Source: Natrinema hispanicum
GTDB lineage: Archaea; Halobacteriota; Halobacteria; Halobacteriales; Natrialbaceae
Assembly (NCBI RefSeq): GCF_900111485.1
Contig: NZ_FOIC01000001.1
Coordinates: forward strand, 248,001 to 312,000
DNA: 64,000 bases
Direction of reading: 5' to 3'
Under the pieces are notes generated by a model. That model was not told the origin of the DNA and ran no database searches. It saw only the letters and a list, made by a program, of their open reading frames with translations. Position 1 is the stretch's first letter; each line of letters starts with the position of its first letter. Made by a program: the position numbers and the translations under genes. Positions 19,799-20,944 of this stretch are shown here, piece by piece.

Positions 19799-19957
19799 AC
19801 TGTGATGGTTTCCCGTCAACGGCAAAGGTGTTCCGGGTAGTTGTAATCGTCTCGAGCGGTTCGACTTGCCGACGGATAGCAAAAGATTGGGCGGTTCCCA
19901 AACGGCTGTGTCAGTCGAGCCGCAGCCTTTTCTGTTAGCTAACGTATACTAATCGGT

Positions 19958-20875
19958 ATGAGTGAAAGTGGCACCGACATAACCGTCGGAAGCGAAACCC
20001 AGCCGGCCGAAGCGAACCGAACGAGCTTCGATCCAAGCGCCGACCCCGATGATGACCTCTTTGTGGTCGTCAAAACCGACTACCTCCGCGAGTTAACAGC
20101 AGTATACGAACCGACGGATCGGAACGCACTCTTTCTTGTCAGGGAGAATGTCGGCATCAAAGCACGGAGCAAAAGTGAGTATTGCTATCTCTTTGAAGTC
20201 GAACTCCCAGCCGACACATTCGACGTATTCCAGGCCAGCGACCTCAATTTACAGGTTGATATCGATGCACTCGAACAAGCGATCACGGAGACCCGGACAC
20301 ATCGAGTCGCCATCCATGCTACGGCGGACGGATCGGTTCGGCTACGAGATGGACACTCATCTACCGATCTCAGTACGACCGAATTCAGTCCACTGGAGGA
20401 TGAGAAGTTCTCGACCGGAACGAAGGATCTAGAGCGAAATCAGTACAATACCTGGGACTTTACCGTTGAGGCGGCCGTTCTCGAGGCGCATCTCGATGCC
20501 GATACGGAACGCGATCACGCTGGTATTGCAGTCGACGGACGTGAGGGAACCGCCGAGATATACTTTTTCGATACCGACAGTGATGATCGAACCGTCGGCC
20601 TCTCGCTTGAACTGGACGATTTCATCGAGCCGCCGTCTCCGTACGGGCCGCAGCCGGACAGCGAGCTTGCCGCTGCACCGATCTGTCGTGAGTCCATCGA
20701 TCACGCATTGTCACCGATGCGCGACGAAGTGACGGTTACTGTCTGTGAATACCCAGACATCTTACCACCACACATCCAGTACACTCGTGCTGACGGGGTC
20801 CTTCCCGTGTACGGGTGGATTTGGTCCCATGAGGGCGCGTTGGACGCCCACAAGAGTGTGAAACCGGAGCGGTAA
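19958..20875 (+). CDS. Unknown protein, possibly a divergent PCNA-like clamp
   Basis: A 305-residue acidic protein. By eye the order of elements resembles haloarchaeal PCNA (about 247 residues). The first half has an initial helix YLRELTAVY, then NVGIKA, FEVELPADTFDVFQA and VDIDALEQAI. The second half has a WDFTVEAAVLEAHL strand-helix, a TVGLSLELDDFI stretch, a helix CRESIDHALSPM, EVTVTV and HIQYTRADG before a final hydrophobic strand. Residues 1-34 are a disordered acidic leader. The canonical haloarchaeal PCNA sequence is not seen here, so this would be a paralogue. The similarity is weak and not proven. Base composition is lower in GC than the neighbours, hinting at accessory origin. Confidence 0.4.
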   Translation: MSESGTDITVGSETQPAEANRTSFDPSADPDDDLFVVVKTDYLRELTAVYEPTDRNALFLVRENVGIKARSKSEYCYLFEVELPADTFDVFQASDLNLQVDIDALEQAITETRTHRVAIHATADGSVRLRDGHSSTDLSTTEFSPLEDEKFSTGTKDLERNQYNTWDFTVEAAVLEAHLDADTERDHAGIAVDGREGTAEIYFFDTDSDDRTVGLSLELDDFIEPPSPYGPQPDSELAAAPICRESIDHALSPMRDEVTVTVCEYPDILPPHIQYTRADGVLPVYGWIWSHEGALDAHKSVKPER

Positions 20876-20944
20876 TCGAACCTGATCGAAAGTCCGCCCC
20901 CGCCTCTCGTCGGAGTAACATTCACATGCCAGATCCCCCTAGCG

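Follow-up and report, generated by a model that had tools for sequence, protein, structure and literature searches.

A divergent haloarchaeal relative of PCNA with a predicted clamp fold and without the canonical PIP-docking elements

Introduction

In Haloferax volcanii PCNA, the PIP box is received by a site that the interdomain connector and the C-terminal tail form together with residues such as Met46 (PMC2737543). Duplicate PCNAs have been reported in haloarchaea, with possible specialisation left open, and second PCNAs are frequently met on haloarchaeal viruses (PhiCh1, CGphi46, HATV-3, HSTV-1, HHTV-1, HFTV1) and on Haloplanus and Haloarcula plasmids, where they form extra, transfer-spread clamp genes beside the chromosomal PCNA (PMC3404096). 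The dispensable second clamp of Thermococcus kodakarensis, PCNA2 (TK0582), is thought to be laterally acquired and has been shown to form a trimer and to stimulate PolB (PMC3984812). A clamp fold beyond standard sequence recognition has also been proposed for poxvirus G8R, or late transcription factor 1, which has a role in late transcription (PMC2674943).

Here, we analysed a 64,000-nucleotide stretch of the Natrinema hispanicum genome (contig NZ_FOIC01000001.1, positions 248,001 to 312,000; hereafter the window), which encodes a protein related to PCNA that, like T. kodakarensis PCNA2, would be a second clamp in a euryarchaeon. Whereas PCNA2 is a demonstrated PolB-stimulating trimer, the present protein lacks the client-docking elements. 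Open-access full texts yielded no paper on this clamp-like family. With this family, whether a PCNA can be repurposed in archaea, and to what end, becomes a directly testable question in tractable halophiles.

Results

The open reading frame begins with ATG and encodes 305 amino acids, at exactly the position and length given by the first-pass annotation, which had also pointed to a low GC content and an acidic N-terminal leader. Both were confirmed, with a GC of 55.7% (GC3 0.61) against 62.9% for the whole window, the reference set for codon usage, and with a leader whose residues 1-21 are disordered in the model and precede a family-conserved motif at residues 24-35. The features are as follows.

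19958..20875, + strand: gene for a divergent PCNA-like protein of predicted clamp fold, 305 aa (open reading frame; dN/dS <0.55 in 10 of 10 homologue pairs; fold and profile evidence)
19958..20053, + strand: N-terminal acidic leader, residues about 1-32 (family alignment; pLDDT <50 at residues 1-21)
20054..20371, + strand: predicted clamp domain 1, residues about 33-138 (alignment to PCNA domain 1; model elements E34-39 H40-49 E E E E E96-101 H102-111 E E E)
20372..20449, + strand: interdomain connector, residues about 139-164 (low pLDDT; without the PCNA consensus IDPDSIRxEPDxPDL)
20450..20824, + strand: predicted clamp domain 2, residues about 165-289 (model elements E165-171 H172-179 ... 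E237-243 H244-251 E E E; without the C-terminal PCNA tail AP(R/K)I)
19845..20936, no strand: lineage-specific segment of about 1.1 kb holding the clamp gene (blastn breakpoints against same-genus relatives)

The leader motif, FxPTAxPDD-x-F(F), reaches partly beyond the end of the leader, and its residues F24, P26, P30, D32 and F35 are invariant in all five family members. Directly before the start codon, at 19934-19949, lie the palindromes GTTAGCTAAC (10 bp, 19934-19943) and GTATAC, a possible operator; this is the sole such site in the window, no counterpart was found before the start codons of the other family members, and no folding was found for the GTTAGCTAAC palindrome.

The protein encoded at 19958-20875 shares ancestry with haloarchaeal PCNA. 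The single 305-aa sequence had no match in Pfam, PHROGs or the PDB and matched the NCBIfam clamp model (PRK01115) weakly, at E 0.14, while its relatives reached 2e-4, with scores far below the cut-off of the model. With a profile of four family members, the top PDB match was H. volcanii PCNA (3HI8) at E 1e-3, followed by a second match at E 0.95, and the family profile recovered canonical PCNAs from haloarchaeal genomes at E 1e-4 to 5e-7. In hhalign, the family aligned end to end with 21 chromosomal, viral and plasmid PCNAs over 243 co-linear columns (Prob 96.8, E 2.7e-10), so that the homology found by both methods spans both PCNA domains. Identity to canonical PCNA is 15-19%, in an alignment that is possibly about one residue off near the old PIP pocket. 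The genome encodes its canonical PCNA separately (G000:C68; L001:1054-1824, - strand).

This agrees with the first-pass suggestion of a PCNA-like paralogue, as profile methods match PCNA in both directions. The three blocks quoted there as resembling PCNA are all co-linear with the canonical protein in the profile-profile alignment, with FEVELPADTFDVFQA opposite VDLSLDSAAFESYEA, VDIDALEQAI opposite VDLSRLEDIA, and TVGLSLELDDFI opposite DVHLELTQEDLI, and the hhalign and PDB profile E values place the resemblance beyond chance.

The predicted fold is likewise shared with haloarchaeal PCNA. AlphaFold2 with a four-member alignment gave a model (pLDDT 79.5, pTM 0.77) with SHSSSSSHSSS-type clamp topology in both halves. 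A Foldseek search with this model returned H. volcanii PCNA on top (E 6e-14) and only clamps among the matches listed, and VIA-align gave Z scores of 23.2 to Archaeoglobus fulgidus PCNA and 23.1 to H. volcanii PCNA over 232-235 residues, the matches listed again all being clamps. A separate model of the Halorussus amylolyticus member, with a five-member alignment, reached a pTM of 0.77 and had A. fulgidus PCNA as its top match (E 1e-13); the two models are not fully independent because their alignments share sequences. Both place two structurally similar clamp domains in one chain, consistent with the order of strands and helices that the first-pass annotation had read as both halves of PCNA, and every top PDB match was a clamp. 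Neither outcome named in that annotation as refuting, a predicted structure lacking the two clamp domains or a profile search that misses PCNA, was therefore obtained.

The family comprises the window gene and four homologues from searches of haloarchaeal genomes.

Halopiger djelfimassiliensis (G239; L004/L006): 45-46% identity to the window protein
G452 (L024/L035): about 43% identity
G039 (L003/L034): about 30% identity
Halorussus amylolyticus (G074; L005/L007): about 30% identity

Compared with H. volcanii PCNA (PDB 3IFV, 3HI8) and the canonical PCNA of the same genome, the window protein retains the two-domain clamp topology over its whole length in the model, with about 240 co-linear residues and an acidic surface, while the family carries an additional acidic leader that has a conserved motif particular to it. 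Positions in the PIP site and the subunit interface are numbered as in H. volcanii PCNA (PMC2737543). The family keeps D/E/Q-H at Asp150-His151 and a domain 2 edge strand, FFDxDxDDRT. By contrast, the PIP-box site is missing from the alignment in all five members, which lack both the connector consensus (IDPDSIRxEPDIPDL in canonical PCNA) and the C-terminal AP(R/K)I, although this is a small-set statement because just five members were found. Met46 is replaced by L or W, and the interface ion pair Arg72-Asp172 by A/T and R/H/P, respectively; the subunit-interface edge strands of the model are predicted but short. A family-specific strand, R-S/G-x-S-x-x-C-Y-W, occupies the position of the old PIP pocket. 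A pocket could have been rebuilt from other residues. The pore-facing helices, four per member, carry 1-3 basic and 4-8 acidic residues against 5 basic and 7 acidic in the PCNA of the same genome, a difference undecisive for DNA binding because H. volcanii PCNA itself deviates from textbook pore charges (PMC2737543).

Taking the homology, the predicted fold and the missing docking elements together, we favour, with moderate confidence, the view that the protein is an accessory one of clamp fold, derived from PCNA and spread horizontally, that does not dock PIP boxes in the canonical way. The leading alternative, which we consider unlikely, is a second sliding clamp of the ordinary kind: a DNA-loaded homotrimer that came from a virus or plasmid, has diverged mainly by drift since that transfer and still serves polymerase or repair enzymes through a rebuilt pocket. 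Second PCNAs are well represented on haloarchaeal viruses and plasmids and have been described in haloarchaeal genomes (PMC3404096), and the model retains the full clamp topology. However, the AP(R/K)I tail is kept by nearly all of the 21 comparison PCNAs, divergent viral ones included (among the haloviral and plasmid second PCNAs compared, by all except that of pJPL23), and viral and plasmid PCNAs also keep the connector consensus, whereas the family keeps neither. Moreover, tblastn with canonical PCNA finds the viral and plasmid proteins, at 25-66% identity, but not the present family, and pattern scans of 2.9 million viral contigs with the protein and two alignments found no relative, while phage and plasmid records queried with two family members gave no credible match.

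The tree also separates the family from such clamps. Its members form one group with support of 100/100 and do not group with viral or plasmid PCNAs, and the branch leading to them, at 1.5 changes per column, exceeds every other internal branch in length, which argues against an ordinary second clamp. The nearest outsiders (fork 85/89) are PCNA copies of the G369/G297 type, which are chromosomal and divergent and come from the same haloarchaeal family, a placement that is unsure because of the long branches; unlike the present family, these still end in an APRF tail, and their connector can be recognised as HPDSVRxVPDxP.

The distribution of the PCNA-derived family is patchy, and its members occupy different chromosomal sites. 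It is carried by 4 of 392 genomes in an even draw of the order, the fifth member coming from a family-wide search, and no member was found in the other sampled genomes of the same genus or in relatives of G452 and of the H. amylolyticus genome. The segment at 19845-20936 is absent from same-genus relatives, as judged from blastn breakpoints, while its flanks are about 92% identical. Four relatives (G016, G019, G002 and G010) hold a DUF5783 gene of about 460 bp on the opposite strand at this slot (e.g. L068:4071-4391) and two (G020 and G013) about 150 bp of bare DNA, so the clamp gene sits in a variable slot; the genome of the window has DUF5783 only as a 57% identical paralogue elsewhere. A conserved IF-2B family gene flanks the slot on one side, and a conserved 108-aa protein and an Mrp/NUBPL ATPase on the other. 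The variable slot, the low GC and the patchy distribution together indicate that the clamp gene was probably acquired at this position by gene transfer.

No partner gene is common to all five loci, and the neighbourhoods differ except for Mrp and IF-2B, which the window and G452 share. In G452, the homologue adjoins Mrp and the IF-2B gene lies about 6 kb off, in an arrangement different from that of the window, and this common neighbourhood may be an ancestral or a recombining position. In G039, the surroundings of the homologue include GmrSD, a TPR-nSTAND protein and an MCM-OB/HSDR_N fusion. The fusion protein (L034:15903-17189, - strand) has 428 aa, with an MCM N-terminal/OB region linked to an HSDR_N nuclease domain of type I restriction, and is encoded close to GmrSD, SRAP and a metallo-beta-lactamase/lamin-tail protein; the TPR protein (L034:2048-5314, - strand), of 1088 aa with an nSTAND NTPase domain, is possibly a defence gene.

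These neighbours bear on a further alternative, a PCNA antagonist, in which a clamp-fold decoy would join or cap canonical PCNA rings and block client docking or ring closure, for example in controlling the replication of foreign elements. The G039 homologue lies 2-6 kb from GmrSD and the nuclease fusion, with the TPR-nSTAND protein on the opposite side, and the distribution is patchy, as for defence genes. The domain 2 subunit-edge strand is PCNA-like (FFDxDxDDRTVxL against FYVDAEGDTDDVHL), while the Arg72 and Asp172 equivalents at the interface have changed. The other four loci, however, have no defence neighbours among the proteins examined, and the clamp gene had no match in the defence library (PADLOC), which holds no model for the clamp gene itself. 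We regard an antagonist as somewhat less probable again than an ordinary second clamp.

A decaying or purely hypothetical gene that resembles PCNA by chance is hardly credible and is contradicted by the conservation data: its GC is low for the genome and single sequences match no annotated family, but intact homologues without internal stop codons in any member occur in four other genomes from at least three families, profile and fold evidence links them to PCNA, and dN is well under dS in 10 of 10 pairs (ratio 0.27-0.54, with dS close to saturation), which shows that purifying selection maintains the protein.

Discussion

The first-pass annotation had proposed either a specialised second clamp or a different use of the clamp fold, a hedged wording that fits the homology, the predicted clamp fold and the loss of the PIP elements. 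As the PIP-docking elements are lost, a clamp-fold protein of another use is favoured over an ordinary second replication clamp; with the client-holding parts missing, the gene is probably a repurposed clamp gained by gene transfer and not a spare replication clamp. Since no member retains the connector consensus or the AP(R/K)I tail, we infer that the protein would not serve polymerases, FEN1 or ligase as a general processivity clamp, and that loading by RFC in the usual way would be unlikely.

A clamp-fold protein of this kind might form a ring by itself, or might join or cap canonical PCNA, and the assembly would more likely scaffold a small group of other partners. Candidate surfaces for docking are the leader motif FxPTAxPDD-x-FF and the strand re-made where the PIP pocket used to be. 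A more specific proposal, which we put forward tentatively as an improbable one, is a haloarchaeal clamp-fold family that has abandoned PIP-box clients and acts on canonical PCNA as a client-excluding mixed-ring subunit or cap, or else recruits one dedicated partner through the leader motif. Poxvirus G8R, which was among the BFVD matches, offers a precedent for the re-use of a clamp fold and is not a relative, being viral and having no sequence relation shown.

The family escapes single-sequence searches of standard protein-family libraries and represents a clear case of a conserved clamp in which the predicted fold is kept and the client-docking site lost. It could uncover an unusual regulator or partner of the archaeal replisome.

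Other unusual PCNA relatives were seen alongside the family. Further divergent second PCNA genes from the same haloarchaeal family are chromosomal (L012:1414-2175, L017:1453-2325 and L010:1315-2121) and end in APRF in the first two and in SPRI in the third, and another second PCNA (L026:1081-2274) has a very long acidic N-terminal extension, with 397 aa in total from the longest possible start. PCNA relatives of 25-33% identity on three Haloarcula plasmids (L080, L081 and L082) are annotated merely as hypothetical proteins. The VP1 head protein of Haloarcula californiae icosahedral virus 1 (L075, NC_030848.1 4261-5583), in which two PCNA domains have already been reported (PMC4958249), contains a PCNA-like clamp with 37.6% identity to canonical PCNA, an odd role for such a clamp in a virion protein.
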